Below are positions 39,749 to 64,000 of a stretch of DNA of 64,000 bases, in pieces (the first letter of the stretch is position 1; every line of letters begins with the position of its first letter). The DNA lies in the NCBI RefSeq assembly GCF_002798405.1, contig NZ_PGGV01000037.1:186001-250000 (forward strand), written 5' to 3'. The translations under genes and the position numbers were made by a program. Origin of the DNA: Glycomyces xiaoerkulensis. Lineage in GTDB: Bacteria; Actinomycetota; Actinomycetes; Mycobacteriales; Micromonosporaceae. Under the pieces are notes generated by a model. That model was not told where the DNA came from. It worked only from the letters and a program-made list of their open reading frames with translations, and made no database searches.

Positions 39749-39840
39749 CAAAGGGGGCCTTCCATCAATCCAGTCGGGGGTTCGCAGGGGGCAGCGTGCC
39801 GGTCGGCGGGGGGGGAGTTCCCGCCGACCGAACGGCAACG

Positions 39841-42800
39841 TCACAACGGGGGCGGCTCCTCGGAATCGGAGCAGTCGGCATCGTCCGGATCCTGCTCGAA
39901 CTGGGGACGATCCGCCGCCAGGGCCTGGATCGACAATTCGTCCAGCACTCCCGACCAGGTCCGGACGCTGTCGATGGCGCCGACCATCTGATTGGTCATC
40001 TCGCCCTGCTGCTCGGCCGCACCGATCGTCAACGGACCCGTCGCCTTCCACGGCGAGGCCACCACCGGGGCCTCATCCTGCAGCTCGCCATCGACATACA
40101 GCCGAATCACACCCGCGCCCAGATCGACCTGGCCGACCAGGTGGTACCACTTGCCGACCCCGGTCGACTCATCGATCTCGGGAGGATCCTCGGCGTACGC
40201 GAGTGTCCAGGGACCGTCCCCAGAGCCGGCCGAAGGCATCGACAACTGGAATCGGCCGGCAACCGGGCTGTAAACCAGATTGAACGCACCGAACTCGTCG
40301 CCGGTCTGCGAAACTATCGTGCGGTAGTCATCGAGATCATCGACTCGCGCCCAACCGGCTACCGTGAACGACTCGTCAGTGGTGATCACGGGGCCTGTCG
40401 TCTCGGCCCAGCCAGTACCGCCGAGCGCGAGTCCATAGGCCGCCCAGCAATCGTTGTACCGGTCGACCTCCCACGAATACTCGCCATTGAGCGTCAGGTC
40501 ATCGGCGCCCCACAGATCGACGCCAAGCTCGTCCCGGCCCAACTCCCAATGCGACAACCGTTCGGTATGAGCGGCAGCGACCTCGTCGGCATCAAGCGCC
40601 CCACGCCACAAACGAACATCCGAAATGGATCCTTCCCACTCCGTCCAACGCGAGCCGTCTTCTACGCCGCCACAGCCGATCACGAACTCCCCGGCGCGCC
40701 AAGGCTCCCAATCCATTGCGATAGTGCCGGTATCGGACAGCTCCCCATCGATGAACAGTTGCAGCAGGGCATTGTCCGGATCGACAGTGACGGCAAAATG
40801 GGTCCACTTCTCCTTCACTGCGGCCTCGGCACTGACGGCACCGTCGCCCCAGTCCGCATCAGCGCTGTCCTGACTGGTCACCCCCACCGTCCAGGTGTCG
40901 GAATTGGCGCTGTACTTCGTCATAACCGAGAAGTACTGTGCGCCGTTGAAGCTGAACAGACGCGGATGCCCACTCGTATGTTCTGCATCCAGCCAAGCCC
41001 ATGCCGATACTGTGAATGCCTCATCGGTACGCACTGGGACCGTGTCAGCGGTCGGACAGGTGGATCCGTCGAACTGCAAAGCGCTCTGAGCGCGGCCATA
41101 CTGATCGGGTCCCCACGTAGGTGCGGTTGGCATCGCGGTCAGGTCGGTACCCCTGCCCGAAACGTCGGCCCCATCTCCGCGCAGCGGGTACCACGCTTGC
41201 ACGGCGGACGGCATGCCATTGCCGTCCATGAGCTCGCTGAGTTGCTCACCGGTCAAGATGTCGTTGAACACCACCGCGTCGTCGACCGATCCGGTCATCG
41301 GATGGAAGGTCGCGCCGTTCCCCTTTGCGCCGCAACCGACCGCGAACCGTCCCGTCGGCGCCCACGGGTCGAACGGTACCGGATCCGAAGCGACCAGTTG
41401 GCCGTTCACATACAACCGCAGTCGTTCGGCCGGAGCGTCATAGGCCGCGGCGACATGGGTCCAGGAACTGAACTCGGTGTTCGAGGACTCGGCGAAGACG
41501 GTGACCGCGGTGACGTCGGCCGTATCGGACGAGTACATGGAAGCACCCCAAGCGTTCGTCGAGGACATGAACAGCTTCAGGTTGCTCCTGCTCTGACCGG
41601 TCGCGCCCATGACCACGGGCGAACCCGACGATGGTGGCGCTTCGATGTAGGCCCAAGCGGCGACCGTGAACGAGTCGCTCGCGTTGACGATGGGCTCATC
41701 GGCGACCATGCAGGTGTCGCTGGCGCCGTCGAAGACGGCCGCCGCGTCCGTGCGGCCCTCGCGGTCCGGACCGTAGACGGCCGACTCCAATGCTGACAGC
41801 GAACTGTCCGCAGCGTCGTCGAGTCCGTCCCCGTCGAATCGCCAAGCGCCGATCGCTTCGGCCGGTTGGGTTTCGACGGTGGTGAACCAGTATGTCGTCG
41901 GACTCGAGGTGTTTCCCGCCGAGTCGACCGCCCAGACCTGGATCGCGTGGTCGACCGAACCGGTGGACGGCGTGACCGATACCTTCGTCTGACCGTCCGC
42001 CGCCGAAACCGCCTGCTTGGTTTCGCCTTCCAAGGCGTACTCGAACCCGGTCACATCGTCACCGCCGACGAACTCGAACTCGACCGGATCTCCCGGGAGC
42101 GGATTCGCGGTCACCCTCGCCACATCAGGTGGCTCAGGCGCGGTCGTATCGATGCGCACGTAGCAGAACTCGCTCTTACTGCTGTGGGTGAATGCATCGA
42201 ACGTCTGGGCACGCCACCTGTACAGCCCATCTTCGGTCACCACGCCAGAGGCCAGTCGGGACGGCGTCGACTGTCCGGCCTGCGCGTCGACGTACCAGTT
42301 CTCGATGTTCGAGCCGGACGGCTTGTAGAAGAGATACCGCAACTCGACCGCGCCGCCGTCAGGGTCCCGCGGGGCTGCGGCCAGCTTCGGAGTACGGGTG
42401 GTCACCAGCGTCGGATCCGACTCGGTGCCACAACCTTGGCCTTCAGTCGACTGCGCGGTCGGGGCCTCCGGAAGTGAGTTCACCGTGAAGTAGCAGTACG
42501 AGGAGAATTGCCCATAGCGCGACGATTCCGCGTCAGAGTCCCGGGCTCGCACGTTCCACCGGTAGGTCCGGCCGCGTTCGAGCTTTCCGGAGGCCACCGA
42601 CACCCGTAGGACCTGACCGTCGGCTACATCATGGGTGTCGATCTGTTCGAGCATGCTCGGATGCGACTTGTCGCGCTCGTAGAGGTAGAACGAGACCCGA
42701 TTGTCCGGTTCGAGACTCTTCGGCGCGGTCGCCTTAAAGGTCGGAGTCAGGTCATTGATGGTCGGTCCTGGTGCCGAAGTCGAGCACGCGTCGCCGTCCG

Positions 42801-44256
42801 TGTACAGGTTCGTGGCCTTGAGCGGAGCGTGCCAGACGATCATCTTCGCCGAGGATGGGTCGAGCTTGCGCCAGTAGTCCCTGTGCTCCTCCTGGTCCCA
42901 GTTGGCTCCGGAGAGTGCCGCGAATACCGCGGTGTTGTTCCCGCGATCGACCAGTTCCTGAATCCGATCGGCGGTCCTGTCGTCGGCCCATCTGATCTCC
43001 TGGTCCGGCTCGTCGGCTCCAGTGTGGGAGGTCGGAACGGAATCGCGGGCCACTTCTCCGACTATCTGGTCGTTGAAATCGTCCCAGGTGATGTCGCTGG
43101 ACATGTCGAACCAGTCCATCGCCGCCAGCCGCACCTTCTGCGTCGAGCCCGCGTCACCGGTGTGGGTCTGAGTGATCCATACGGTCGTCTGCTGCACTTC
43201 ACGGTCGGCGATCGCCTGCAGGCCGTTGAACTTCATCGCCGATCGCCACGCACCGTAGGTAGAATCGCTTGCCCAGGTCTGTCGACCGGTGCACATCTCT
43301 GAGCCGGTGCCGCAGGTGATGCCGGTCGTCCGTGAGTAGGCGTTGGCGAAATTGGCGCCCTCGTCGCGGAACTTGGGGTCGATATAGATGGGGAACTCTG
43401 CCTCGGGGTCGCTCAGCAGGTCCTGGTCCGGGATCACCGTCAGCGAGTCGTCGTCCATCTCCAGCTCCATCGGAGCCGCATGTTCGGGAATGCCTGCGTC
43501 GGTGGCTGAGGAATCCCACATCCACGGGCTCTCGACGGTGAACGCCGGTCGTCCGGACTTGTCGGCGAGCGAGGCGGTGTCGGCGGCGTTATCGGAGGCG
43601 ACCGACAAACCGTGGGATTTGAACCCGAGCTCGACGCGCTTCAGCGCGGGATTCGTTGCGGCTTCGGGGGTCTTGACCACCAACGCGTAGGAGAACCCGG
43701 TCACCTCGGCATGGGCTTGCAGGTCGATCTCCGGCAGCACCTCGGGGTAAGTGATGGTGTCACCGTCGATGACCGGTTCAGGCAGCGGCTCGCCCCAGCT
43801 CAGCGTTACCGCCTCACCCTCGCGGTTGGTTGCGGTAACGAATTCGGACTCACCGCCCGACCCGAACGCGAGGTCCGAGACGGTGGCTTTGGACCGGATC
43901 GTGCCGTTCTCGTCGACTTCGAGGGTGGTGTCGGCGTCGACCCATTCGCCGGCTTGGTCGGGGACCCACTGCGGCTCTACGGTGAAGGCGGTGCTCACCG
44001 AACCGTCGGGCTGGGCGTACGAGCTGGTGGTGTAGCCGACTGAGTCGCGGATGAGTACTTCCGCACTGCATTCCGCGGCCAGTGACAGTGCGCTGGACTC
44101 GCTACGCTCCTGCAGGTCAGTGGATTCGCTACAGGTCGATTCATCGATGTCTTGGGCGGAGGCAGGGGTGTCGATGAGCAGCGCCGCACCGATCACGGCT
44201 GTCAAGCCGAGGCCCAAACCACGATGGACGAATCCAGGGGCGTGGGGTCGCTTCAC
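39841..44256 (-). CDS. Secreted LamG-repeat protein, partner of the RHS protein
   Basis: The 1471-residue protein begins with a signal peptide (HRGLGLGLTAVIGAALLIDT, cleavage near ASA-QD). It has an N-terminal Asp/Glu-rich region and a DNRLRE-like domain (about 290-460; YIDPKFRDEGANFANAYSR). Two fibronectin-like segments follow, then three LamG/concanavalin-type domains at about 800-1000, 1018-1230 and 1233-1440. Each of these has the patterns SFTVAAWAYIE, AFTVSAWAWLD and SFTVAGWARVD. Such proteins precede RHS genes in many actinobacteria and may aid secretion or surface binding. GTG 44256 lies 9 bases after GGAAA; GTG 44265 is also in frame. The gap to the RHS gene is 92 bases. Confidence 0.9.
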   Translation of the reverse strand: MKRPHAPGFVHRGLGLGLTAVIGAALLIDTPASAQDIDESTCSESTDLQERSESSALSLAAECSAEVLIRDSVGYTTSSYAQPDGSVSTAFTVEPQWVPDQAGEWVDADTTLEVDENGTIRSKATVSDLAFGSGGESEFVTATNREGEAVTLSWGEPLPEPVIDGDTITYPEVLPEIDLQAHAEVTGFSYALVVKTPEAATNPALKRVELGFKSHGLSVASDNAADTASLADKSGRPAFTVESPWMWDSSATDAGIPEHAAPMELEMDDDSLTVIPDQDLLSDPEAEFPIYIDPKFRDEGANFANAYSRTTGITCGTGSEMCTGRQTWASDSTYGAWRSAMKFNGLQAIADREVQQTTVWITQTHTGDAGSTQKVRLAAMDWFDMSSDITWDDFNDQIVGEVARDSVPTSHTGADEPDQEIRWADDRTADRIQELVDRGNNTAVFAALSGANWDQEEHRDYWRKLDPSSAKMIVWHAPLKATNLYTDGDACSTSAPGPTINDLTPTFKATAPKSLEPDNRVSFYLYERDKSHPSMLEQIDTHDVADGQVLRVSVASGKLERGRTYRWNVRARDSDAESSRYGQFSSYCYFTVNSLPEAPTAQSTEGQGCGTESDPTLVTTRTPKLAAAPRDPDGGAVELRYLFYKPSGSNIENWYVDAQAGQSTPSRLASGVVTEDGLYRWRAQTFDAFTHSSKSEFCYVRIDTTAPEPPDVARVTANPLPGDPVEFEFVGGDDVTGFEYALEGETKQAVSAADGQTKVSVTPSTGSVDHAIQVWAVDSAGNTSSPTTYWFTTVETQPAEAIGAWRFDGDGLDDAADSSLSALESAVYGPDREGRTDAAAVFDGASDTCMVADEPIVNASDSFTVAAWAYIEAPPSSGSPVVMGATGQSRSNLKLFMSSTNAWGASMYSSDTADVTAVTVFAESSNTEFSSWTHVAAAYDAPAERLRLYVNGQLVASDPVPFDPWAPTGRFAVGCGAKGNGATFHPMTGSVDDAVVFNDILTGEQLSELMDGNGMPSAVQAWYPLRGDGADVSGRGTDLTAMPTAPTWGPDQYGRAQSALQFDGSTCPTADTVPVRTDEAFTVSAWAWLDAEHTSGHPRLFSFNGAQYFSVMTKYSANSDTWTVGVTSQDSADADWGDGAVSAEAAVKEKWTHFAVTVDPDNALLQLFIDGELSDTGTIAMDWEPWRAGEFVIGCGGVEDGSRWTEWEGSISDVRLWRGALDADEVAAAHTERLSHWELGRDELGVDLWGADDLTLNGEYSWEVDRYNDCWAAYGLALGGTGWAETTGPVITTDESFTVAGWARVDDLDDYRTIVSQTGDEFGAFNLVYSPVAGRFQLSMPSAGSGDGPWTLAYAEDPPEIDESTGVGKWYHLVGQVDLGAGVIRLYVDGELQDEAPVVASPWKATGPLTIGAAEQQGEMTNQMVGAIDSVRTWSGVLDELSIQALAADRPQFEQDPDDADCSDSEEPPPL

Positions 44257-44616
44257 TTGGGGCACTTTCCTATTGGGGGTAGTGGAGATGATGAGGCATG
44301 TAAGGCCGACACTGGCTGTGACCGGAACCGCCGAAAACGTTAGCAGCGATCGCCTGAGCCCGCAGCACGAGCGACGGACTCTCTGTTAGCAAATCAGGAC
44401 CTGATATCCACAGATGTTGCCCCAAGCTGGCAATATAACGATTCGGCTTCAATGGCGACCTCAGGCTCGACCCACCATCCACAGAAGCACAGTTGATCCG
44501 ATATTCACTGTCCATACACCCCAACATTCCACTGTGATTCGCCTCAGGTCTCTCCGCCGTTGCGGCGCTCCGCCCACGGCTGTTCGCCGTCGGACCTGGA
44601 ACGTTACGATCGGTCC
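44257..44616. other. Divergent intergenic region between toxin locus and glycan cluster
   Basis: 360 bases with no credible gene. It holds the promoter of the LamG-RHS unit (minus) and probably that of the glycan genes (plus). It is moderately AT-rich at 44380-44520. No operator or repeat is recognised. Confidence 0.4.
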
Positions 44617-45324
44617 GTGTCCGCCCCCACTCACGCCCGAATCGACTCGCTGCGTGTGCAGATCGTGGTCGATGCGAGCCGGTCCAAGAGCAAGGTCGGG
44701 CCCGCCGTCTACAGTGCCCTCGGCACCTCCCGGACATCGGCACGGGTGGCGGTGCTGGTGCCCGACGAGCGCCGCGCTGAGCGGCTGCGCCGTCGCTTCG
44801 CCGACGAACCGCGAATCACCTGCGCCGACGAAGCTCCCGACACCGCCGCGCCGTACCGGCTGTGTATGCCACCCGACCTCGTGCTCCGAGTCGGCGCCCT
44901 GGACCGCATGGTCCGCGAGATCGAACGGGACCAGCTGGGCATCATCTTCCTGGCCTGCGTCAAGAACAGCGACATGCACTTCGCCCGCCTGGAGCGGCGC
45001 GAAGCGGTCGAGGCCGCGGCCCGCGCGCACCCCGGCGACAGTCGCTTCGACGCCGTCGACCGCCGTGATGGCACCCGGTGGATCGACGGGTCCGCGTGGG
45101 CCTTCGACTGGACCGACGAGTTGCCCGAGTCGCCGGACGTCACCGGGCTACACCGCGAGCTGGCCCTGCTCCGCGCCGCCCTCGGCGAGCGCGACGCGAA
45201 GCTCGCCGAGACACGAGAGCAAGCCCGGCACTGGCGGTCTCTGGCGACCGAACCACTGCGCCGACGCCTGCGGCGCGGGATGAAGCGACGCCTCGTCCGC
45301 ATTCTGCGAGGAGGTTCCCGGTGA
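44617..45324 (+). CDS. Hypothetical protein with C-terminal coiled coil and basic tail
   Basis: The 235-residue product starts at GTG 44617 (SAPTHARIDSLRVQIVVDAS); a TTG at 44560 is also in frame. I do not recognise the N-terminal alpha/beta domain (RVAVLVPDERRAERLRRRFA, RLCMPPDLVLRVGALDRMVR, GIIFLACVKNSDMHFARLER). Residues 175-215 form a coiled coil (LHRELALLRAALGERDAKLA), and the end is strongly basic (RRRLRRGMKRRLVRILRGG), like the tails of the glycosyltransferases in this cluster. The stop overlaps the Asn-synthetase-like start by GTGA, so the two are coupled. Probably a partner in glycan assembly. Confidence 0.75.
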   Translation: MSAPTHARIDSLRVQIVVDASRSKSKVGPAVYSALGTSRTSARVAVLVPDERRAERLRRRFADEPRITCADEAPDTAAPYRLCMPPDLVLRVGALDRMVREIERDQLGIIFLACVKNSDMHFARLERREAVEAAARAHPGDSRFDAVDRRDGTRWIDGSAWAFDWTDELPESPDVTGLHRELALLRAALGERDAKLAETREQARHWRSLATEPLRRRLRRGMKRRLVRILRGGSR

Positions 45325-46967
45325 ACGACGAACCGATCGCGTACCGCGCCGGGCAGTACTGGTGCGGCGCGCTCGGCCGCTGGAGCCGGGAGCGGCTCGA
45401 ACGCCTGCGGCGCGACGCGCCCGACGGCCTCTCGACCGCCGTCGAAGGCCCGACCGCGGTCCTCTGCACCACCGGAACGACCGACTCCTGGTCGTCCGGG
45501 TCCCGCCGCGGCCGGTATTGGGACCCGTTCGCCTCAGGCTCCGAACCGACACGATGGCAGGACGCCGCCGAATCGCGCCTGGCCGCCGGGCTCCAGACCG
45601 AACCGGTCGCGGCCCTGCACACCGACGCCCTCGGCCTGCACGACCTCTACTACCGTGAGATCGACGGCGCGGTCTACTTCGCCTCGCGCATCGAAGGGCT
45701 GCTCGACCTCGGCGACGCTCCACTCCACATCGGATGGGACGCCTGGGCCGCTATCCTCGCCTTCCACGCCCCCGCGGCCGACGACACGCCGTTCCGGGAG
45801 ATCCGCCGACTGCGTGCGGCCACTGCGCTTGCCGTCGATGACGGCCGCCTGTCGCGTGACTCGTTCGAACCCGGCTGGCTCCAGGAGACCGAGGACGCGA
45901 AGACCACGCCGACCGACGTCGTCGACACCGTGACCGAGGCGATCGTCCCGGCCTCCGAGGCGGCGATGACCCTCAGCGGCGGCTGGGACTCGCGGCTGCT
46001 CGGCATCCTCGCGCGCCGCCGCATCGGCGCCATCACAGCCTGGACCACCAGCGGCGACGACGGCCACGACCGGGACGTGGCGTACGCGGGCCCAGTCGCC
46101 GAAGCCCTCGGCATGGAGCACCGCACTCTGATCCCGGGCCCGGAGGCCTGGGTAGAGGAGCACGCGGCCGTGCGGGAGCGCCTGGAGTTCCAGACCCACC
46201 TCCACACCTGGATCATGCCGGTCGCCCGCAGCCTCCACGACCGGGAAAGGACCGTCATCGACGGTCTGGCCGGCGACATCCTGTTCAAGAGTGCCCTGGT
46301 CGGCAAATCCCTCGCGACCGAGACCGACGCCAGACGACGCGAACACCGGCTCTGGAAGACCTTGGAGCAGCGCCGCCTACGCGCCAACCGGATGCTGCGT
46401 CCGGCCGTGGCCGACCTCTTCACCGAGACCACGGGCGACCGGCTCCACGCCGCCGTCGCCCCCTTCATCGGCCACCGGGCCGGCGCCATGCTGGGTGTGC
46501 TGCACCTCCGCACGGCTCGGGCCATCGGCCTCTCGGGACGGTGGCTGCTCGGACCGGAGCTCGACGTCCGGACCCCGTTCGCGCACCCCGAGGTCCTTCG
46601 CGCCGCGATCCGCGTGCCGGCCGAGGAGAAGCTCGGCGGCGCGTTCTACCGGCGCATGCTCCACACCGCCGACCCCCACGTCGCAGCCCTGCCGTCCACG
46701 AACGACGGCAGACCCCTCGGCGCGCGGCGCGGCCGCAGGCAGGCGAGCCCCGAAAGCCTTCGGATACTCGGGCGCCACGTCCGCGAGGCGGAGCCGATAA
46801 TGGCCCTGCTCACGCCGACCGCGCGCCGCGCCGTGAAGGACCCCGACGCTCTGGCACTGCTCGGATCCGGCATGGGCGGCATGCGGACGCTGGCATGGGC
46901 CGGGCTCTTCGGCAACTGGCTGGAACGGCACCGAGCCCGGCTCGCGATCGACGGCTGCGGCGCCTGA
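45321..46967 (+). CDS. Asparagine-synthetase-like ATP-dependent ligase without Cys2 glutaminase nucleophile
   Basis: The 548-residue protein has a degenerate N-terminal Ntn-like domain (LHDLYYREIDGAVYFASRIE) that begins VNDEPIAYRAG and lacks the Cys2 nucleophile of glutamine-dependent asparagine synthetases. The C-terminal synthetase domain has the PP-loop SGGWDS at residues 219-224, TAWTTSGDDGHDRDVAYAGP, VIDGLAGDILF and LDVRTPFAHPEV. It should activate a carboxylate as an adenylate and join it to ammonia or another amine. Relatives include beta-lactam and lasso-peptide cyclases, but no precursor gene lies nearby. It sits in a glycan cluster, so amidation of a uronic acid or amino-acid substituent is the best inference. 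GTG 45321 overlaps the previous stop. Confidence 0.85.
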   Translation: MNDEPIAYRAGQYWCGALGRWSRERLERLRRDAPDGLSTAVEGPTAVLCTTGTTDSWSSGSRRGRYWDPFASGSEPTRWQDAAESRLAAGLQTEPVAALHTDALGLHDLYYREIDGAVYFASRIEGLLDLGDAPLHIGWDAWAAILAFHAPAADDTPFREIRRLRAATALAVDDGRLSRDSFEPGWLQETEDAKTTPTDVVDTVTEAIVPASEAAMTLSGGWDSRLLGILARRRIGAITAWTTSGDDGHDRDVAYAGPVAEALGMEHRTLIPGPEAWVEEHAAVRERLEFQTHLHTWIMPVARSLHDRERTVIDGLAGDILFKSALVGKSLATETDARRREHRLWKTLEQRRLRANRMLRPAVADLFTETTGDRLHAAVAPFIGHRAGAMLGVLHLRTARAIGLSGRWLLGPELDVRTPFAHPEVLRAAIRVPAEEKLGGAFYRRMLHTADPHVAALPSTNDGRPLGARRGRRQASPESLRILGRHVREAEPIMALLTPTARRAVKDPDALALLGSGMGGMRTLAWAGLFGNWLERHRARLAIDGCGA

Positions 46968-46976
46968 CCGCACCGC

Positions 46977-49925
46977 TCAGCGCCGCAGCATGCGCTTGAC
47001 CTTCGCCTTGAGCCGGGAGAGCACCCACGTCGGCGAGAACTTGACGTGCCAGGCCAGGTGATCGGCGCGGGACTTGTCCAGCTCGACCAGTTCCAACAGC
47101 TCCTCACGCCTGCGCCATTCGCCGCGCGAAGCCGGCAGCGGCGCCTCCTCGGGACGGGCGACCGACGACGGGGCGGACATCCGGACGATCGACGACAGGC
47201 GCTCGACATGCCGGTCGAGATCGAAGCTCTTGGCGCCGAACCACACGGCCCTGGCGAATATCGAACGCCGCTCCAGGCGCATCCGATCCTCGCCGTGGCG
47301 CGCCACCACGAGCCCGGACTGCCCGCGGTTCGCGACCTCCAGCAGACTTCCGATCGTGTATGGCGTGGTCGGAATGCGCGGGGAGAGCACCAGCCGCCAC
47401 GGCACCGACGGGTCGGCGCGGCCGTACTCCCAGTTGGTGAAGCGGACGCGGCGGTCGGCGCGCAGGGCCTCATGGACCAGCTTGAGATCGAGCCTTGGGT
47501 GATCCAATGTGGCCTCGCGGCCGGTCGTCGGCTCCGGCCACGAACCGACCAGCGTCACCCGGATGTCGCGGCAGAAGCCGTCCAGCAGCGGCATGACCGA
47601 GTCGACGACCTCCTCGAAGGAGGCGTCCTCGACGTCGACGACCACGTCGACCAGTGGCACCGTCCACGACCGGCCGCCGTTGTCCTTCCGGTGGATCGAC
47701 TCGGGGATGCGCTGGCCGTTGAGGGCCTTGCGGACCCGCTTTCCGCGGTCGCGGTTGCGCCAGCCCTCGGGGATGCCCAGGTGCCAGACCGACTCGCCGT
47801 CGTCGGGGACGAACACCCCGCCGGCCAGCCCCACCCGGTAGGCGAACTCGACGTCCTGACCGCGCACCATCTCGACGTCCATCCCGCCGGCCGCGACGAA
47901 CAGGCTCCGGTGGGTCGAGACCGTGATGCCCTCCATGACCGAGTGCAGGCGGCTCCAGTGCGCGGTGCGGAGCCGGTCGGAGCCCGCGAGGAACTTGACG
48001 TTCTTGGCCTCGAGCGCGGCATCGACGTCGAACAGTCCGTCCGCTCGGCCCGCGGCGACCTCGCGCGCCACCTGGTCCGGGCTCAGCGTACCGGTCTCGT
48101 ACTCGACGAATCGTTTGTGGCCCAACACCATCAGATTGTCGACGAGGTGATGCCAACGCAGGTGCGACTCGATATGGGCCCTGAAGGGGACCGTGTCGGC
48201 GTCGAGCCGGACGATCACCTCCCCGCTGCTGGCCGACGCCCCGACGGCCACGGCGTTCCCCGCGCCCCAGGCCTCGCCGGTGGTGCGGACGATGCGGGTC
48301 GAGGCCGGCCGCCGCTCCGGCAGCCGCAGAGGCGGGTCGCTCCGGTCGTCGACGACGACGACCTCGGTGAGCTCGGCCGGGTAGGACTGCTCGGCCAGAC
48401 CGGCGAGCACGAGGTCGAGCTTCTCCTGGCCGCCGTAGGCGGGCACCACGACCGAGACGGTCAGTCGCGGCTCGAGCCGGCCGATTTCGGCCGGCCGCAG
48501 ACTCGACCAGTCGTTGCGGGGCAGGGCTTCGCCGTCGTGCCGACCCGCGACTCCGGGCCGGTAGGGCCGGAAGTCGGGGCGGACCCCCCGCCGTTTGCCG
48601 ACGACCGAACCGTGGCGCGTGAGCCGTTCGATGAACGCCGCCGACTCGCTCCAGGTTCGGCGGAACGCGGCCTCCGCCTTGACGTCCCAGGATTCGACCG
48701 CCACGATGTCCTCGTCGGTCATGGCCTTGACGTAAACGGCGATCCGCTGCGCGACGCCGTCGCGGTAGCGGTCGTCGAGCAGATCGAGCGCGGGCGTGTA
48801 GTGACGCGCCATCCAGTCGGCCCGGCGGTCCTCCCGGCAGACCCGGTCGCGCAGGAGCCGCAGCAGCAGGTCACGGCCGTCGTAGCGGCCCATGGAGAAC
48901 ACCAGTGAGCACTCGAGCGGCATCGGGACGGCAGTGAGGTCGGCGAGCGCCTGAGGGCTGCGCAGCATGGCGTCGACGCGCTCCGGCTCGGGCCAGCGGC
49001 CACTGAGCGCGGAGTCGACCAGCGTCTTGCGGAAGCAGTTGCGGCACGAGCCGCAGGGAATCCCGGCGCCGCCGACGTGGCAAGACTGGGCGAGAACCTC
49101 TCCTCGCCAGGCCTGGTCGACCACGACGGGGGTCGAGGCCTCGGTGAGCCCGGCGGCGACCGGCTGGAACGGGAGCCCGGCCGCGGCGGTGACCGGCTGC
49201 CAGACTCGGAACGCGTGGTCGGGTCCCGGGGCGCTGAAGCGGCCGCCGCTGAGCCCGTAGACGCTGGAGGCCAGGATGCCGGTGACCAGGGCGTCGAGGC
49301 CGTCGAAGTCGGCGCAGAGCACCGCCGGGAGCGCGAACGACAGGTCGGTCGGCAGGTTTACCGGGACGCCGGTGGGGCGGCGCAGATATTCGACGTCGCA
49401 AGGGACGCGGCGCACGAGGTGGCCCTTGCGCTCGATGTCGTCGCAGGAGGCGTGCGCGGCCGCCTTGTTGATGGCGCCCTTGCCATCCTCGCGGATGACG
49501 CGATCGAGGTAATACAGGTGCGGTTCACCGGGCAGCAGAGCCACCGCGGCGACCGAGTCGACGCCGCCGGAGTATGCGACGCCGGGTCGCGGCCCGGCGG
49601 GCCGGACACGGGGTGGCAGGTCCGGATCGGCCGGTTCGAGCTCGAGGTCGAGGTGTTCGGCGACGGCGGCGGCAAAGGGTTCGCTGACGGGTCGGTCCAG
49701 GAGGAGGCGGCGACCGGCCCAGGGCCGGCACGACAGCAGCGCGGCCAGCGCCAGGACGTCGGGGTGGGTGGCGTCGAGGTCGAACCCTCCGGGCAGCCGG
49801 GCGCTCGCGGTTCGGCCGATCATGGCCTCGCCGGGGATCTCGGTCCGGTCGTCGGATTCGGGTTCGAAGTGGAGCCGGACGGCGACGGCGTCGGTCTCGG
49901 GGACGGCGGTGATAGTGGTCTTCAT
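46977..49925 (-). CDS. Fusion protein: QueC-like PP-loop ATPase domain plus GT2 glycosyltransferase
   Basis: The 982-residue protein starts at ATG 49925, overlapping the previous stop as ATGA. Residues 1-430 contain the PP-loop GVAYSGGVDSVAAVALL (SGGVDS 119-124). They also have a Cys cluster SCHVGGAGIPCGSCRNCFRK (Cys282, 291, 294, 297), much like the zinc site of QueC/ExsB enzymes. Residues 488-720 are a GT2 domain (LTVSVVVPAYGGQEKLDLVL, metal-binding DAD at 575-577, MDVEMVRGQDVEFAYRVGLA). The C-terminus has a second degenerate domain and a basic tail HVKFSPTWVLSRLKAKVKRM. The combination of an adenylating N-transferase fold with a glycosyltransferase is unfamiliar to me. It may couple an amidation-like step to sugar transfer. 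The frame is open further upstream only as an antisense-like shadow of the neighbouring gene. Confidence 0.85.
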   Translation of the reverse strand: MKTTITAVPETDAVAVRLHFEPESDDRTEIPGEAMIGRTASARLPGGFDLDATHPDVLALAALLSCRPWAGRRLLLDRPVSEPFAAAVAEHLDLELEPADPDLPPRVRPAGPRPGVAYSGGVDSVAAVALLPGEPHLYYLDRVIREDGKGAINKAAAHASCDDIERKGHLVRRVPCDVEYLRRPTGVPVNLPTDLSFALPAVLCADFDGLDALVTGILASSVYGLSGGRFSAPGPDHAFRVWQPVTAAAGLPFQPVAAGLTEASTPVVVDQAWRGEVLAQSCHVGGAGIPCGSCRNCFRKTLVDSALSGRWPEPERVDAMLRSPQALADLTAVPMPLECSLVFSMGRYDGRDLLLRLLRDRVCREDRRADWMARHYTPALDLLDDRYRDGVAQRIAVYVKAMTDEDIVAVESWDVKAEAAFRRTWSESAAFIERLTRHGSVVGKRRGVRPDFRPYRPGVAGRHDGEALPRNDWSSLRPAEIGRLEPRLTVSVVVPAYGGQEKLDLVLAGLAEQSYPAELTEVVVVDDRSDPPLRLPERRPASTRIVRTTGEAWGAGNAVAVGASASSGEVIVRLDADTVPFRAHIESHLRWHHLVDNLMVLGHKRFVEYETGTLSPDQVAREVAAGRADGLFDVDAALEAKNVKFLAGSDRLRTAHWSRLHSVMEGITVSTHRSLFVAAGGMDVEMVRGQDVEFAYRVGLAGGVFVPDDGESVWHLGIPEGWRNRDRGKRVRKALNGQRIPESIHRKDNGGRSWTVPLVDVVVDVEDASFEEVVDSVMPLLDGFCRDIRVTLVGSWPEPTTGREATLDHPRLDLKLVHEALRADRRVRFTNWEYGRADPSVPWRLVLSPRIPTTPYTIGSLLEVANRGQSGLVVARHGEDRMRLERRSIFARAVWFGAKSFDLDRHVERLSSIVRMSAPSSVARPEEAPLPASRGEWRRREELLELVELDKSRADHLAWHVKFSPTWVLSRLKAKVKRMLRR

Positions 49926-51445
49926 CTGCGGGCCATGTGTCGAAGGCAGTGGAGGAGCCACGTGGGCGAATATCGGACGTGCCGGGAGAGCCTGGCGACA
50001 CGGCGCGGCTGCCACCGCCGCTCGTTGTAGGCCCTGGCGAGGCGGCCGACCTCGTTGGGGCGGCGGCGGGACTTCGGGGCCTCGGCCTCCGGCGCGAGCC
50101 GCGCCGACTCGGCGACCTCGTCCACCGGCACGCCGAGGTGGTCGGCGCGGGCGGCGGCGGAGCGCCGGACGAGCCGGGCGGTGCCGTCGGGCGAGGGCAG
50201 TTCGACGGTGCCGACGTTGTGTTTCTCGGCGGCGCCGGTGAGCCGGGAAACGGTGTGGGTGGTGGCAGGGTAGGCCAGCGGGAGTTCGAGGCGGAAGGGC
50301 GTCGAGTGGTGGGCGGGGGGCGTCTCGGCGGCGAAGGCGACGCGCGCTTCGCCGCCGTAGTAGGCCTGGACGACCTTGGCTTCGAGCTCGTCGTCGGCGA
50401 CGACGGCGCGCTGGAGCGAGGGGTCGGGCCAGGGGGCCACGAGGGTGATGCGGATGTCGGAGCGGGCGCCGTCGAGCAGAGGGCGGACGCGGGAGTCTAT
50501 GCGTTCGAGGTCGAACTCGTCGACGTCGATGACGATGTCGACCGAGGGGACGTCGAACTGGACGCGGGGGGCCTGGCGGCGGCTGCGGTGCTCGGGCAGG
50601 CGCTGGAGGAAGAATGCGCTGCGGTATCGGTTGCCGTCGGCGGTGCGGGCCTTGATCTCGGGGACGCCGAGGTGCCAACTCGAGGTGTCGTCGTCGGGGA
50701 CGAACGCGGCGCCGGCCTGGACGAGGCGGTGCCCGAAGTCGGTGTCGCTGCCCAGGGGCATCGAGGAGTCGAAGCCGCCGGCCCGCTCGAAGAGGGTCCG
50801 GGGGAAAGAGGCCGAGGCGCCTACGAAGACGTTGGCGACGTTGCGCCAGCGGGCGCGTTTGAGGCCATCGGTGCGTTCGATGACGCTTTCGATCCACTGG
50901 GGCTTGGCTTCGGCCGGGTCGAACAGGCCGGCGGCCTCGCCCGAGGCGACCGCGTAGTGGACTTGTTCGGGTGTGTACTGGCCGGGCCGGTAGTCGACGA
51001 AGCGCTTGTGCCCGAGCACGACGAGGTAGTCGGCCAGATGGTGCCACCGCATCTGGGATTCGATGTGCTCGCGCCAGACCAGCATGTCGGCGTCGAGCCG
51101 GAGGATCACCTGGCCGTCCGAGGCGGCGACGCCGGCGTTGGTTCCGGCGGCCGAGCCCCACACCTCGTCGGGGGTGGTGATGACGCGGCAGTGCTCCGGG
51201 CGGATCTCGGGTAGGCGCAGCGGCGGGTCGCTGCCGTCGTCGGCCACGACGACCTCCAGGAGCGACTGGGGGTAGCTCTGCACCGACAAAGCGGCGAGCG
51301 CGTGGTCGAGCTTCTCCTGGGCACCGTACGCGGGCATGACTACGCTGACACTCTGCCACGGCTCCCATTCTCCAAGCCGGGGAACGGCGAACGACGAATA
51401 GTCATTGTCGGAGAGAACCGAGTGACGGGAGGTGCGAGGTGCCAT
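49922..51445 (-). CDS. GT2-family glycosyltransferase
   Basis: The 507-residue protein has a GT2 domain from about residue 30 (QSVSVVMPAYGAQEKLDHAL, VVADDGSDPPLRLPE, the DAD motif at 118-120 in LRLDADMLVWREH, and SDTDFGHRLVQAGAAF). A second, unassigned domain follows (residues 270-430; VDIVIDVDEFDLERIDSRVR). It ends with ARLSRHVRYSPTWLLHCLRH, similar to the tail of the fusion protein encoded next. It is a paralogue of that protein's GT2 part and of the plus-strand gene at 54273. No membrane helix. It should add a sugar to a lipid- or membrane-linked acceptor. It is coupled to the fusion gene through ATGA. Confidence 0.9.
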   Translation of the reverse strand: MAPRTSRHSVLSDNDYSSFAVPRLGEWEPWQSVSVVMPAYGAQEKLDHALAALSVQSYPQSLLEVVVADDGSDPPLRLPEIRPEHCRVITTPDEVWGSAAGTNAGVAASDGQVILRLDADMLVWREHIESQMRWHHLADYLVVLGHKRFVDYRPGQYTPEQVHYAVASGEAAGLFDPAEAKPQWIESVIERTDGLKRARWRNVANVFVGASASFPRTLFERAGGFDSSMPLGSDTDFGHRLVQAGAAFVPDDDTSSWHLGVPEIKARTADGNRYRSAFFLQRLPEHRSRRQAPRVQFDVPSVDIVIDVDEFDLERIDSRVRPLLDGARSDIRITLVAPWPDPSLQRAVVADDELEAKVVQAYYGGEARVAFAAETPPAHHSTPFRLELPLAYPATTHTVSRLTGAAEKHNVGTVELPSPDGTARLVRRSAAARADHLGVPVDEVAESARLAPEAEAPKSRRRPNEVGRLARAYNERRWQPRRVARLSRHVRYSPTWLLHCLRHMARR

Positions 51446-52334
51446 ATCGCAGTCATCTTATCCACATCGATTGCGAGGCGGAGCGTAGCCGCCGCCGGCG
51501 TAGGCGAGGTGGATGGGCTGATGCCGTGCGCTACCCCGTCGGCGCAGCCCCTGTGCTGGCGTCGCACACCAGCGGTGGCCATACCGCCCGGTTCAGCAGA
51601 CGCCGCACCGCGGCCGGGCCGACGTCACCTATCCATTCAGCGGTCGACCAGCCATTGCCGTTCGGCCAAGCCGGACGTGACCGCGCGCAGGTACTGCCCG
51701 GCCTTCAGCCGCGGCCCGACCCGGGCGAAACAGCCATCGACCTGAGCCAACAGCACCCGCAGCAGCCCATCACACATCTCGCTCCCTACGCTGGGATCTG
51801 CAGCCGCTCCTTGTTTCCTTCGTGTCACGACAAAGAAGACGCCGAGCGGCGCCTCTCTGCTGCAGGCCAACAGCATCAGACAAGACCCGACACCCCTGCA
51901 TCGCCGCAGGTCGACACCGGCCGCCCGCCCAAACACGGCCGTGCCTTCCGCATGACTGAACTGGTCATGAACGCGAGCGCAATACTGGTTTATGCGAGGA
52001 AGCGGCCAGCGGTGTGATCTCACCTACTGTAGACTCTCGACCTCTGGTGCCCCGTTCAGTACGGAACCACGCCCTACCGGACTTCCAGGCGAACGACGGC
52101 GGTCGCCGAGGCGTCACCATCGCGGAGGGTCAGGCGATACCGCTCGCTACCTGCAGTTCTTACCGCCCGGCCGCGGCTGGCTATACTGCGGACAACATCT
52201 CTTACCACATGTTATGCGCTGCTCCTCCCTACCACGTCATTCGAGACGCCGGACTCCCGCAGCGCAGGGCCCGACAAGAATAGCCTGTGACTCCGTTTCA
52301 GGAGCATCACCGCCGAGCTGAACAGAGAGGCACC
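51446..52334. other. 889-bp divergent gap with transposon debris
   Basis: Apart from the transposase remnant at 51540-51783, no gene can be supported. Frames at 51439-52017 (plus) and 51783-52023 (minus) are open but have compositions unlike the genome's proteins. Promoters for both glycosyltransferase arms should lie near the ends of the gap. The ribosome-binding site AGAGAGG at 52324-52330 serves the next gene. Confidence 0.5.
51540..51783 (-). pseudogene. IS701-like transposase N-terminal remnant
   Basis: On the minus strand CDGLLRVLLAQVDGCFARVG and PRLKAGQYLRAVTSGLAERQ are followed, after a frame change near 51640, by GDVGPAAVRRLLNRAVW. This matches the N-terminal pattern of IS701/IS4-group transposases (FARVEPR ... 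YLRGLLS ... ERKN ... AGDATPxxxQRLLNRAVWD). The rest of the transposase and the element ends are not visible. It marks an old insertion between the two arms of the glycan cluster. Confidence 0.55.
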
Positions 52335-54251
52335 ATGACTACCGATCCCCTCGCGGGCTTCCTCGCACGGGAGAGCGCTCTGGTGGCGACTATCGGATTC
52401 CACTCGGGGAACGGGCCCGCCAACGCCCTGGCGGCCGTCGAGGCACGGCCTGAGGTGATCGACCTGGACGATCTGGACGTCGGTGTGCGGCCCTCTGGTG
52501 AGTACCGCCGTCTGGCCGTGGTGGCGCGGACGATGACGGACCTGCATCGGGCAGTCGCCGTTTCGGGCCTGCTTCCCCAGGTTCGCCAGTGCCTGGTCGT
52601 CATCACCGAGATGGCCGCTGTGAACCGCCCCGTACAGGTCAGACTCCCGGCCTACTGGACCGCTCAGTCTCTGCTGAAGCTCGAGGTCAGGTTCGACGAC
52701 CCGCACCGCTGGTCGTGCGAGTTCGCCGTCAGGCAGCCTCTGGCGGCGGTCCATTACGTCCGGGCCGTCATCGCCACCACCACGGAGAGCCCGCGCCCGA
52801 TGTCGCCTCGCTTCGCCCTGCACGGGCCGGGTTCCGGACACTGGAGCCCTGGCGCCCCAACAAGTCCGAGACCACCGCTGCCGGTGGAGAATTCGCCGAA
52901 CGTACCGTTCTATGACGTGATGCTTCACACCGGCCCCCTCGAGAAGGTCTCCGGTGATGACCGGGTGCGTTTCCTCGAGGTCCGCGACCCCAGACCGGTG
53001 CGACGGGGAATCTTCGGTGGGAGCGGAGACCCGGTCCACGACTCCGTCGATCCGGGCATCCTGCCCCCGATCGACGAGTTCACGGTTAACCGGATGGGAT
53101 TCGACAATCGCCCCAAGGAGAGCGACGCCGATCTCGTATTCGCCGATCATGCCTGGCAGGTACGATTCAAGGACGGTAGGCGGATGCGACTCGATCCGTC
53201 GGGAGCGGTCACCGACTTCGACCTCGAGCGGTTGCGCGAACTCCGGTCGGTGCGAGTCCACTGGGACGGGCACCCCGGCAGCATCGGAGGACTCCGCACC
53301 GTCGCCGGACTGGCGTGCGGGGGTGTTCCCCTGGTGAGCCGTGATCGGAGCCCGCTCTGGGCGGGGGCACTCAACGGCACCGTAACCTCTCGAATGGATA
53401 TGTACGCTTCTGAGGAACTCTCGGATGCACTGCGCCGCGAGTCCCACTCGGTCGCACTGTCGCGAGCAGCGCTGCGAGAGCACTCTTCGGCTGCGCACAC
53501 CCAACGCGTGCGTGCGGCCAGCGGCCTGCCCCCGGAGGAAGCACCGTCCGTTTCAGTGCTTCTGTGCACTATGCGGCCCGACTTCCTCGTCCCGGCGATT
53601 CGCCAGATCAGCGCCCAGGACCACCCCCGCATCGAAATCGTATTGGTCCTGCATGGGCTCGCGGCCGACGTCCCCGAAGTCAAGCAGGCCATCGCCGATT
53701 GTCCCCTCCCGATCACCGTGGTCGAGGTCGACGGCGACGAGATATTCGGCGGAGCGCTCAACCTCGGTGCGCAAGCGGCGTCGGGCGAGTTCATCACCAA
53801 ATTCGACGATGACGACTGGTACAGCCCCCATCACGTCAGCGACCTGGTGCGGGCTTCGCACTATTCGGGCGCCGTTCTCGTCGGATGCGGCGCCGAGCTG
53901 GTCTACCTCGAGGAGTTCGATCTGACAGTCCAGCGTTTCGGAGGACACAGCGAACGGCGCAGTCTGCACGTTGCGGGAGGCACGATACTGATCCGCCTCT
54001 CAACGTTCCGCGAGCTGGGAGGATACCGTCGGGTCCGCACCGCCGAAGACCGCGAACTCCTTGCGGCCGTAGCCGAGGCCGGCGGAACCATCTATCGGAT
54101 GCACGGAATCGGCTACGTGCTCGCCCGCCGCGCGAGCGGCCACACCTGGAACCGGCCGTCGGCCGCCTTCTTGAGAGGCACCGAGCGCCAGATGCGGGGC
54201 GTCAATCTGGGGGATTTCGTCACCGCCGGCAACCTCGAAGCAGCCCTATAG
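52335..54251 (+). CDS. Glycosyltransferase family 2 protein with large N-terminal domain
   Basis: The 638-residue protein starts at ATG 52335 behind AGAGAGG. Residues 1 to ~400 form a domain I cannot name (GFHSGNGPANALAAVEARPE, DVMLHTGPLEKVSGDDRVRF). The region about 150-350 appears beta-rich. A GT2 domain runs from about 404 (SVSVLLCTMRPDFLVPAIRQ, EIFGGALNLGAQAASGEFIT, the metal motif KFDDDDWYSPHHVSDL and GGTILIRLSTFRELGGYR). The TMRPxFL start of the GT2 is typical of transferases in teichoic-acid and capsule clusters. The next gene follows after 21 bases. Confidence 0.87.
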   Translation: MTTDPLAGFLARESALVATIGFHSGNGPANALAAVEARPEVIDLDDLDVGVRPSGEYRRLAVVARTMTDLHRAVAVSGLLPQVRQCLVVITEMAAVNRPVQVRLPAYWTAQSLLKLEVRFDDPHRWSCEFAVRQPLAAVHYVRAVIATTTESPRPMSPRFALHGPGSGHWSPGAPTSPRPPLPVENSPNVPFYDVMLHTGPLEKVSGDDRVRFLEVRDPRPVRRGIFGGSGDPVHDSVDPGILPPIDEFTVNRMGFDNRPKESDADLVFADHAWQVRFKDGRRMRLDPSGAVTDFDLERLRELRSVRVHWDGHPGSIGGLRTVAGLACGGVPLVSRDRSPLWAGALNGTVTSRMDMYASEELSDALRRESHSVALSRAALREHSSAAHTQRVRAASGLPPEEAPSVSVLLCTMRPDFLVPAIRQISAQDHPRIEIVLVLHGLAADVPEVKQAIADCPLPITVVEVDGDEIFGGALNLGAQAASGEFITKFDDDDWYSPHHVSDLVRASHYSGAVLVGCGAELVYLEEFDLTVQRFGGHSERRSLHVAGGTILIRLSTFRELGGYRRVRTAEDRELLAAVAEAGGTIYRMHGIGYVLARRASGHTWNRPSAAFLRGTERQMRGVNLGDFVTAGNLEAAL

Positions 54252-54272
54252 AAAGGAACGATCCCTCCGACC

Positions 54273-55949
54273 ATGCCCACCTCCGCAGCTTCGCCGAGCC
54301 AGCAACCGCGCATCCGGCGCAACGACCACGGTGTCCTGTCGCCTCCGGATCTGGGCGCCTGGATGCCTGACACGCTCGTCAGCGTCGTCATTCCCGCATA
54401 CGGCTCTCAGGACAAACTCGATGTGGCACTGGCGGCCCTGGCGGCCCAAAGCTATCCTTCCGAACTGCTCGAAGTGATCGTTGTCGACGATCAAAGCGAA
54501 CCTGAGCTGCAACTGCCGCAACTGGCGCCGGACAAGACCAAGATCGTCAGGGTCAGCGGCCCCCACTGGGGCAGCGCCAACGCGGTTCACATCGGGATCC
54601 AGGCCGCCTCGGGCGACGTCGTCCTGCGGCTCGACGCCGATATCCTCACTTCTCATCGGCATGTCGAGGCACACGCTCGCTGGCACCACCAGTGCGATTA
54701 CCTCGCGGTCGTCGGCCGCATCGCCTTCGCCGACATCGGGCCCGAACGGCTGCCGCCCCAACAGGTGCACTCGGCGGTCGCCGCCGACCTGGCCGACACT
54801 CTGTTCGAAGGGTTGGACATCAACCCCAGCTGGGAATACAACATGGTCGAAAAGTACGACCAGTTGCGCACGCTCGACGACCGAGCCTGGCACGTGGCGA
54901 ACGGAGCCACTATCTCCTTCTCCCGGCGGCTCTACGAGGCTTGCGGCGGCATGGATACCGCCATGATCCTGGGCGGCGACACCGAATTCGGCTACCGGAT
55001 GGCCCAGGCCGGGGCCGTCCTCGTCCCCGACGGTGGGGCCGTCGCCTGGCACCTGGGCATGTCGCAGATGAAGTCTCGCCGTGAGGAGGGACGCCGATAC
55101 CGCGAGCCGTTCTTCGCGAACAGCATCCCCATGATGCGGCACCTGCGCAATTCAAGCCACGTCGTATGGGAAGTGCCATATGTCGAAGTCGTCATCGACG
55201 TGCGCGATGCGTCCTTTGAGGATGTTTCCTCGAGCTGTGTCTCCGTCCTGAACAGCACGGTGACCGATGTCGGACTCCGTCTCCTCGGCCCCTGGTCCGA
55301 GCTGACAGACGAGCGACGATCCCCGCTGGACGAGCCGCTCGTTGACCTGAGGCTGATCGCCGAGACTTTCCGTGCCGATCCTCGGGTCGAGTTCGCGGAG
55401 GATCTCGATCAGCCTTCCAGAAACGTGCCATTCAGACTCACAATGCCCGTCGGTCTCCTCGTCGCCCCAAACGCGGTCTCCGAAGTGGTCCGTGTCGCGA
55501 ACACCCGGCGTGTCGGCAAGGTCAATTGCGCCGTCACCGGCTTCGAGGCGCTCGCCGCGGTCACACTGGAACGCACCGCCGCCCTCAGCCGCGCCCTCCA
55601 TCTGCGGGCGGAGGGTGAAACGCTGGAGGACGTGATCGACGAGATCTGGGGCGTCTGGTGGGAAGACGGCGACGACTGGTTCGGCACCGAACCGCCCGGT
55701 TCCGGAGAAGCCCCGAGCGCCCAGGCGATCCCGTACGGAATAGTCGAGGAACTCAAGGACAAGCTGGCTAAACAGCGGAAACGTGCAGAATGGTGGAAAC
55801 AGCACGCCGGCAAGAAGGCCGAGTCACTCGACAAGTGGCGGTCGAGGGCCAAGCAACTCCAATCCGAATCCTCCAGAGCCGCACGGCCGTGGTGGCGCTC
55901 GGTCGCCGGCCGGGCGCGGGCGAAACTGCGACGGATGCTGCGGTCGTAA
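54273..55949 (+). CDS. GT2-family glycosyltransferase with C-terminal coiled coil
   Basis: The 558-residue protein contains a GT2 domain from residue 32 (TLVSVVIPAYGSQDKLDVAL, VIVVDDQSEPELQLP, LRLDADILTSHRHVEAHARW, GGDTEFGYRMAQAGAVLVPD). A second domain shares layout with the paralogues (YVEVVIDVRDASFEDVSSSC). Residues 490-545 form a coiled coil (IVEELKDKLAKQRKRAEWWK) ending in the basic tail GRARAKLRRMLRS. It is a paralogue of the minus-strand transferases at 49922 and 46977. It lies between two other glycosyltransferase genes on the same strand. Acceptor unknown. Confidence 0.9.
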   Translation: MPTSAASPSQQPRIRRNDHGVLSPPDLGAWMPDTLVSVVIPAYGSQDKLDVALAALAAQSYPSELLEVIVVDDQSEPELQLPQLAPDKTKIVRVSGPHWGSANAVHIGIQAASGDVVLRLDADILTSHRHVEAHARWHHQCDYLAVVGRIAFADIGPERLPPQQVHSAVAADLADTLFEGLDINPSWEYNMVEKYDQLRTLDDRAWHVANGATISFSRRLYEACGGMDTAMILGGDTEFGYRMAQAGAVLVPDGGAVAWHLGMSQMKSRREEGRRYREPFFANSIPMMRHLRNSSHVVWEVPYVEVVIDVRDASFEDVSSSCVSVLNSTVTDVGLRLLGPWSELTDERRSPLDEPLVDLRLIAETFRADPRVEFAEDLDQPSRNVPFRLTMPVGLLVAPNAVSEVVRVANTRRVGKVNCAVTGFEALAAVTLERTAALSRALHLRAEGETLEDVIDEIWGVWWEDGDDWFGTEPPGSGEAPSAQAIPYGIVEELKDKLAKQRKRAEWWKQHAGKKAESLDKWRSRAKQLQSESSRAARPWWRSVAGRARAKLRRMLRS

Positions 55950-61800: not shown

Positions 61801-62000
61801 AAGGCTGCTCTCTCCATCTACGGGGCGGAATGCCGGGTGACGGCGATCCGGTCCGGCACGGCCGGGAGGGTACCGGAGTCCGGGTGCGACGCGGCCTGGG
61901 ACGCAAGTCGAGTCGTGTTCACCATCGTACAAAGCTTGCGCCGGTCAGACATGCTCCGGCCCGCGACGGTGGCCGGAGCCCGGCTGCCTGACCAGACCCT
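61801..62000 (-). other. Gap between exporter permease and acyltransferase genes
   Basis: 200 bases of non-coding DNA separate two minus-strand genes. No operator or clear terminator is seen. It may contain a promoter for the acyltransferase. Confidence 0.3.
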
Positions 62001-63278: not shown

Positions 63279-64000
63279 GCATCATCTCCGTGAGGTGACG
63301 GCTGATCGCCACCGAATCCAGTTCACGATGTTCGAGAATCGTATAACGGCCCGGCCGTGTCCTCGGAGCGTACTCGATCGCGGCGGTGAGTTCGTCCAAG
63401 GTGAGGCCGAGTTCGCCGGGTGTCCGGGCGAGCCCGTGCCGGTCCATGGCCGCGGCCAGTTCGGCGAACAGCGCTCTGTCGCCGCGCAGCCAGGTGCAGA
63501 ACAGCGCGCCGATCGCGCCCTGCTCGCCGTGGCCGACCAGGCCCGGGTGCCGGGCCTGGAGGGCGTGGGCGATCTCGTGGCAGCCGCCCGAGCAGGGGCG
63601 CGAGGAGCCGGCCATGCCCATCGCCAGGCCGCCCTGGACGAGGGCGTTCGCGAGCGTGGACAGGAAGCCGTCGTCGGCGACGGTGCCGGGGTGGCGCAGC
63701 ACCGCTTCGGCGCCGGTGCGGGCGATCGCCAGCGCGAGCCCGTCGACGGCCTCGCCGTTGACCTCGTGGGACAACTGCCAGTCGGCGGTGGCCGAGAGGT
63801 TGGTGAGGGCGTCGCCGACGCCCGAGCGCAGTTGGGCCCGGGGGGCGCGGCGGATGTAGTCGAGGTCGGCCAGGACCGCCAGGGGCGTGTGGACGCCGTA
63901 GGAGATGGTGGCGTTCTCGCGTTCGAGGGACGCCACCGGCGAGGCGATCCCGTCGTGGGCGAGGCTGGTGGCCACCGCGACCATCGGCAGGCCCAGTTCG
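63265..64000 (-). CDS. Glycerol-1-phosphate-dehydrogenase-like enzyme, 5' end outside window
   Basis: The minus-strand frame is open to the window edge (ELGLPMVAVATSLAHDG at its start), giving about 244 residues. Features match the metal-dependent G1PDH/AraM branch of the iron-containing alcohol dehydrogenase superfamily: SLAHDGIASPVASLE with the first metal Asp, RSGVGDALTNLSATADWQLS, GCHEIAHALQARHPGLVGHG with His ligands and GEQGAIGA. The branch reduces dihydroxyacetone phosphate to sn-glycerol-1-phosphate or handles similar substrates. Next to a TagG-like permease it may supply glycerol phosphate for the polymer; a related 3-dehydroquinate-synthase-like role is possible. It is cotranscribed with the permease by a 14-base overlap. 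Confidence 0.85.
   Translation of the reverse strand, partial: ELGLPMVAVATSLAHDGIASPVASLERENATISYGVHTPLAVLADLDYIRRAPRAQLRSGVGDALTNLSATADWQLSHEVNGEAVDGLALAIARTGAEAVLRHPGTVADDGFLSTLANALVQGGLAMGMAGSSRPCSGGCHEIAHALQARHPGLVGHGEQGAIGALFCTWLRGDRALFAELAAAMDRHGLARTPGELGLTLDELTAAIEYAPRTRPGRYTILEHRELDSVAISRHLTEMMHELV

Follow-up and report, generated by a model that had tools for sequence, protein, structure and literature searches.

What a domain resembling QueC might contribute to a glycosyltransferase is the question raised by a single gene of Glycomyces xiaoerkulensis. In this study, we analysed a stretch of 64,000 nucleotides (contig NZ_PGGV01000037.1 of assembly GCF_002798405.1, forward-strand positions 186,001 to 250,000), referred to here as the window, in which a protein of 982 residues is encoded on the minus strand at 46977-49925 by a single open frame, with its ATG at 49925 and its stop codon ending at 46977. 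A preliminary description had reported in this one frame the PP-loop motif SGGVDS at residues 119-124, a cluster of four cysteines and a family 2 glycosyltransferase (GT2) domain with a DAD motif. All of these were located, and Pfam backs both halves: the protein is a member of DUF6395 (PF19932; residues 242-414, 127.5 bits against a gathering cut-off of 25) and matches Glycos_transf_2 at residues 491-617 (49.7 bits, cut-off 23.3). The assignment of DUF6395, a family of unknown function, as a QueC-like PP-loop domain is supported by profile comparison. One reading, to which we give somewhat less than an even chance, is that this half forms amides at the expense of ATP and thereby modifies the wall-glycan sugar on which the fused GT2 acts.

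The DUF6395 domain is larger than its Pfam model, which spans only part of it, as invariant columns reach from residue 54 to residue 413 (9 to 25 members). With boundaries placed by ourselves, it consists of an N-terminal extension (residues 1-110; 49596-49925, on the minus strand like every part of the gene) with the invariant H54-P55-D56 and S81, taken from the alignment; a QueC-like core (residues 111-310; 48996-49595), taken from the hhalign comparison with QueC; and a C-terminal extension (residues 311-435; 48621-48995) with the invariant M402 and W413, taken from Pfam and the alignment. The core contains the PP-loop (49554-49571) and the cysteines C282, C291, C294 and C297 (residues 282-297; 49035-49082). 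A linker (residues 436-482; 48480-48620), which shows the lowest conservation of the segments (57% identity to Glycomyces salinus), leads to the GT2 domain as delimited by Pfam (48075-48455), whose D575-A-D577 (48195-48203) is present in 3/3 fusions. Among PDB sequences, the GT2 half is matched best by chondroitin synthase (2z86, 2z87; residues 490-795, E 2.5e-7).

The relation to QueC was assessed with an alignment of 25 DUF6395 members, from which locus L072 was left out, the start of its frame being uncertain, and a reference set of 27 QueC proteins. GGxDS is kept in 25/25 DUF6395 members and SGGxDS, the form found in the fusion, in 21/25; the four cysteines are kept in all 25, and G216, W242, E262 and T265 are further invariant columns. 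Comparison of the two alignments by hhalign gave E values of 3.3e-11, 7e-12 and 3.6e-8 at three settings and spanned the core from the PP-loop to the cysteine cluster, while, in the controls, E was 0.15 for the reversed QueC alignment and never lower than 0.05 in 60 column shuffles. Against single E. coli proteins, which were used as controls for the other PP-loop families rather than alignments, E. coli QueC gave 0.0012 and the eight others 0.033 to 0.95. At another setting, E values ranged from 4e-7 to 0.026 for the 27 QueC proteins taken singly (0.0072 for that of E. coli) and from 5e-4 to 0.52 for five QatC-type proteins, four of which score below the NCBIfam cut-off. The QueC-like PP-loop domain that the preliminary description had seen in the N-terminal part is thus upheld by profile-profile matches that beat the shuffled controls. 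Hidden Markov model scans of nine members returned, besides DUF6395, weak PP-loop matches only; those of single members to tRNA_Me_trans (E 0.025) and TilS (E 0.061) point to no more than the PP-loop superfamily. A PDB sequence search with the DUF6395 part likewise gave weak matches (E 0.11 and up), to GMP synthase, Cap9, QueC, TilS and NAD synthase as well as to unrelated proteins.

A canonical QueC was considered and rejected. The substrate motifs YxQxHxxE, VPxRN and YPDC, which are found in 16/27, 22/27 and 20/27 QueC proteins, respectively, are each absent from 25/25 DUF6395 members, and DUF6395 is therefore not QueC itself; furthermore, TIGR00364 finds nothing in the window's genome at E 0.001, and PF06508 nothing in nine DUF6395 members at E up to 5. 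The cysteine spacing of the fusion, C282-x8-C291-x2-C294-x2-C297, fits the C(x)8CxxCxxC zinc motif of QueC; however, this spacing does not discriminate QueC, since the first gap is x8 in 13/25 and x7 in 12/25 DUF6395 members and exactly x8 in 4/27 QueC proteins. Membership of QatC was also rejected. Although the N-terminal extensions align well by eye, 15/100 shuffles equal that alignment, and the likeness was therefore dropped as evidence of homology; NF041925 (QatC) has no match in the window's genome, and the QatC zinc pattern C(x)19CGxCxxRR is absent, the DUF6395 spacing being x7 or x8 in 25/25.

Among 22 genomes of the genus Glycomyces, the fusion is present in three, namely that of the window (G000), G. 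salinus (G416) and G400, the last two represented by loci L026 and L029, and these 3/3 carriers of DUF6395 all have it in one frame with GT2. Identity to the window protein is 74-75% for G. salinus and, for G400, 43% in the search and 41% in the alignment; when the whole fusion protein was searched against 61 genomes, no other match listed reached the first 420 residues. Between the window and G. salinus, the ratio of nonsynonymous to synonymous substitution rates (dN/dS) amounts to 0.34 for the whole protein and to 0.38, 0.38, 0.36, 0.49, 0.26 and 0.33 in six segments from the N to the C terminus, linker included, so both halves are under purifying selection. A chance or assembly join is excluded, because the same fusion recurs in G. 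salinus and G400 and dN/dS is low. In the GT2 tree (95/89, 42 rows) the fused copies group as a single clade, as they also do in the DUF6395 tree (99/96, 25 rows), in which the Priestia protein is their sister; long branches were flagged in both trees. With a single clade for each half, one fusion event is the simplest reading and the likely origin of all three Glycomyces fusions. Every DUF6395 copy found outside Glycomyces is unfused, and therefore the fusion is local, probably with a single origin. The architecture is thus shared with G. salinus and G400, but the caveat of the preliminary description, that homologues might always be two separate proteins, very nearly holds.

DUF6395 itself was detected in 2/396 genomes of a phylum sample and 1/60 of a second phylum sample, in 16/394 of a class sample (15 above the cut-off, 14 of those in family f103) and in 5/198 of the class to which genome G331 belongs (4 above the cut-off); the phylum and class samples overlap, and matches in G688 and G955 fall below the cut-off. 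We assign f103 to the Streptosporangiaceae because the gene order matches that of Nonomuraea gerenzanensis. Two records of a plasmid collection matched, from Priestia megaterium and Nonomuraea. Phage records gave no match, and viral contigs gave no relative in scans with single proteins, which detect close relatives only. A role in defence is not supported, as PADLOC gave no match for nine DUF6395 members or for the fusion; one f103-type member matches SAVED2 weakly (E 0.048). In G331, four unfused DUF6395 genes stand in tandem within 6 kb (L027:12066-17690) in a polysaccharide locus that also encodes a GT2 and a methyltransferase-glycosyltransferase protein. Close by are a homologue of the fused GT2 (L027:9549-10796; 31%, 8e-37) and a homologue of a GT2 of a second type (L027:8779-9480; 39%, 6e-43), which the window encodes at 52287-54251 on the plus strand. 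In G956, a protein of 1000 residues carrying both GT2 types (28%, 2e-20; 39%, 4e-42) begins ~110 bp after DUF6395. Judged by these homologues in two distant actinobacteria, the GT2 link of DUF6395 extends beyond the fusion itself, and the fusion and the recurrence of the GT2s beside unfused DUF6395 together point to a role of DUF6395 in surface-glycan synthesis in some lineages. A divergent DUF6395 branch comprises L070, L071 and L072, whose neighbours are presumably hydantoinase-type, aldehyde-dehydrogenase-type and aminotransferase-type genes; of these loci, only that of G956 also includes the double GT2 and a Fic-domain protein.

How might the two halves work together? QueC and Cap9 form amides from an acid and ATP (PMC13329287, PMC13279940). 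By analogy, the protein would be a bifunctional enzyme of the wall glycan. Its residues 1-435 would be a QueC-superfamily PP-loop domain with a four-cysteine site, probably for zinc, in which a carboxylate is most likely adenylated with ATP and the resulting acyl-adenylate captured by ammonia or an amine to give an amide. The likeliest carboxylate would be a uronic acid, or another acid, of a glycan precursor, which the GT2 half (residues 466-982) would then extend or transfer. We infer ATP use, zinc, adenylation, the amide product, the substrate and the coupling of the halves from the comparisons described above, and the suggestion of the preliminary description that the fusion protein amidates, thiolates or otherwise N-modifies a sugar has the same conditional standing. 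Uronates are plausible because two nucleotide-sugar dehydrogenases, scoring above the model cut-off, are encoded ~150 kb away in the same genome (L132, G000:C31:66000-85000), adjoining two paralogues of the fused GT2 as well as a TagH-like ATPase and a CDP-alcohol phosphotransferase-like protein, neither of which reaches its cut-off, and because two more occur in the Priestia DUF6395 locus, together with GalU, a pyruvyl transferase, glycosyltransferases, a GXM-type protein and spore-coat genes. The most plausible target is a uronate, or some other acid, of this wall polymer.

Several observations weigh against amidation of a glycan sugar. Nucleotide-sugar dehydrogenases were looked for without success in the window and its right flank, on the G. 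salinus contig and in the stretches of G331 and G956. The proximity of the GT2s to DUF6395 in G331 and G956 is a raw co-occurrence, and G910 and G942, sister genomes of G956, gave no match to these GT2s near DUF6395. The 15 f103-type loci, which make up most of the DUF6395 copies found, have none of these GT2s, and therefore DUF6395 need not be a glycan family. In addition, the acid substrate is not predictable, since the three QueC substrate motifs are absent. A wider proposal, which we put forward tentatively and with more doubt than belief, is that DUF6395 represents an unrecognised branch of the QueC superfamily that, independently of AsnB-type amidotransferases, amidates carboxylates on surface glycans or on a protein partner of its own, and that its fusion in Glycomyces created a single-chain 'amidate and transfer' enzyme. 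If this is true, DUF6395 would in Glycomyces be fused to the glycosyltransferase that uses the product of DUF6395.

The alternatives differ in what the N-terminal domain would act upon. It might no longer perform any glycan chemistry and instead serve to position the GT2 or control it, as a module for binding or regulation; this would fit the loss of the QueC substrate motifs and the fact that only 3/22 genomes of the genus have the fusion, GT2 paralogues without DUF6395 being common there. However, the PP-loop and the four cysteines are kept in 3/3 fusions and 25/25 members and the core has a dN/dS of 0.38, and we consider such a module unlikely. Only slightly less likely is that the substrate of DUF6395 is a protein, as shown for Cap9 and proposed for QatC, which in Glycomyces would be the GT2 half itself or a partner protein. 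A candidate partner of the unfused copies is a small coiled-coil protein in which the end, HRLAxE...LQxE...WQxxD, is conserved. Its gene lies directly upstream of DUF6395 in 15/15 f103-type loci (L033:14480-14878; L056-L069), six of which had gone into the model behind this count. A homologue lies on the opposite strand within the G331 array (L027:14665-15036, E 6.5e-17). A model of nine partner proteins matches 10/296 genomes, all of f103, and nine of those 10 carry DUF6395; in the tenth, G689, the partner is cut, matching at positions 3-62 only, and DUF6395 is missing, with the flanking genes remaining. The N- and C-terminal extensions flanking the core, as in QatC (PMC13279940), also favour this idea, but the extensions resemble those of QatC no better than 15/100 shuffles do. 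Moreover, the partners do not begin with Met-Gly, and the window and Glycomyces stretches searched gave a single partner match, at E 0.92, with none better than E 0.9. Whatever its target, the pairing in another actinobacterial family offers a second, independent handle on DUF6395 chemistry.

It is improbable, by a little more again, that the domain converts the N-acetyl group of a sugar to an amidine, as proposed for WbpG-type sugar amidotransferases. These provide a precedent within the superfamily for action in a polysaccharide pathway (PMC13329287), and the GT2 half resembles chondroitin synthase; however, the fusion has C-x8-C-x2-C-x2-C rather than the WbpG-type CxxC(x)6CxC, and in nine members NCBIfam models returned no family of this kind, even at E up to 5. 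Transfer of sulfur to an activated carbon, in the manner of LarE- or thiouridylase-type PP-loop enzymes, might be read into the weak tRNA_Me_trans and TilS matches, which speak at superfamily level only. QueC is the best profile match, whereas E. coli MnmA gave E 0.033 without aligning to the core and TtcA 0.43, and we regard this chemistry as very improbable. Finally, membership of the QueC superfamily might suggest that a 7-deazaguanine is conjugated to a glycan or protein. A tyrosine and an aspartate at the YPDC site recognise the base in Cap9 and are common to QueC (PMC13279940), but YPDC is absent from 25/25 DUF6395 members and the window's genome has no QueC match (QueD and QueE were not searched for), which leaves this idea with scarcely any credence.

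The fusion is followed, in convergent orientation, by an Asn-synthase-like gene (45321-46967, plus strand; Pfam Asn_synthase, E 3e-11; start codon predicted), which ends 10 bp before the fusion's stop codon and matches eps_aminotran_1 only weakly (18.5 bits, cut-off 816.9). The preliminary description had drawn attention to this second amide-forming candidate, and its adjacent, convergent position is confirmed; it does not, however, generally travel with DUF6395. It adjoins the fusion in 2/3 fusion loci, those of the window and G. salinus; on the 6.5 kb G400 contig a DUF6270 gene occupies its place, and a search of 23 other DUF6395 surroundings, that contig among them, gave no match. In glutamine-dependent AsnB, a cysteine at the N terminus is the glutaminase nucleophile. 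No cysteine stands next to the start of the Asn-synthase-like protein in the window or in G. salinus, that start being a prediction, and the neighbour may therefore do without glutamine. Overlapping the Asn-synthase-like gene is a gene of unknown family (44560-45324, plus strand), which neither Pfam nor NCBIfam recognises and which has a homologue with 62% identity at the same place in G. salinus, the two genes (44560-46967) being kept together there.

The genes on the other side support placing the fusion in a surface-glycan locus. The stop codon of an upstream GT2 gene (49922-51445, minus strand; Pfam) overlaps the fusion's ATG, and a 71% identical gene is found at the same place in G. salinus. 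The second-type GT2 is followed by a paralogue of the fused GT2 (54273-55949, plus strand), both recognised by Pfam and search; G+C content at third codon positions is 0.78-0.79 in this pair (52287-55949) and 0.90-0.92 in the fusion, the upstream GT2 and the Asn-synthase-like gene, so the pair may be a later-acquired cassette. Further along are an acyltransferase with an SGNH domain (59560-61932, minus strand), a permease resembling ABC-2 type polysaccharide exporters (62001-63278, minus strand; Pfam, with an NCBIfam match below cut-off) and part of a glycerol-1-phosphate-dehydrogenase-like gene. Two sites ~150 kb apart seem to share a pathway of wall-glycan export, with the permease and the glycerol-1-phosphate-dehydrogenase-like gene at one (59560-63984, L073) and the TagH-like ATPase and the two nucleotide-sugar dehydrogenases at the other. 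At 33902-44265 the window holds a very long repeat-rich frame, which we take to be RHS-like, and a Laminin_G_3 protein; the G. salinus contig lacks a counterpart of either, and the genes that flank this stretch stand next to each other there.

Our literature search, in which some papers were judged by title, returned no paper on DUF6395 and no description of a QueC-like or PP-loop domain fused to a glycosyltransferase, in line with the statement of the preliminary description that no enzyme of this architecture had been described. The fusion hints at an uncharacterised chemical tailoring of surface sugars. DUF6395 gives no match to PF06508, the family mapped by a 2026 survey (PMC13329287), yet keeps the PP-loop and the four cysteines. 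Amidation of a sugar has a known route in the WbpS-type uronamide synthases of the AsnB family (PMC7468200), an enzyme family different from DUF6395; it is the convergent neighbour that belongs to the Asn-synthase superfamily. Chondroitin synthase resembles the GT2 half but is without a PP-loop domain. WbpG-type sugar amidotransferases, placed in the QueC superfamily by the same survey, differ from DUF6395 in cysteine pattern and by the absence of a model match, in a comparison by motif and model. QueC (TIGR00364/PF06508) shares with DUF6395 the PP-loop, the four cysteines and a core that can be aligned from loop to cluster, but has substrate motifs that DUF6395 lacks, and DUF6395 carries extensions on both sides. 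QatC also has N- and C-terminal extensions, but its zinc pattern differs and its profile match to DUF6395 is weak (E 0.0035, compared with 1e-16 between QueC and QatC). In QatC and Cap9, QueC-type cores serve protein modification, shown for Cap9 and proposed for QatC. The QueC scaffold has recently turned up in phage defence, where it is put to use for modifying proteins.

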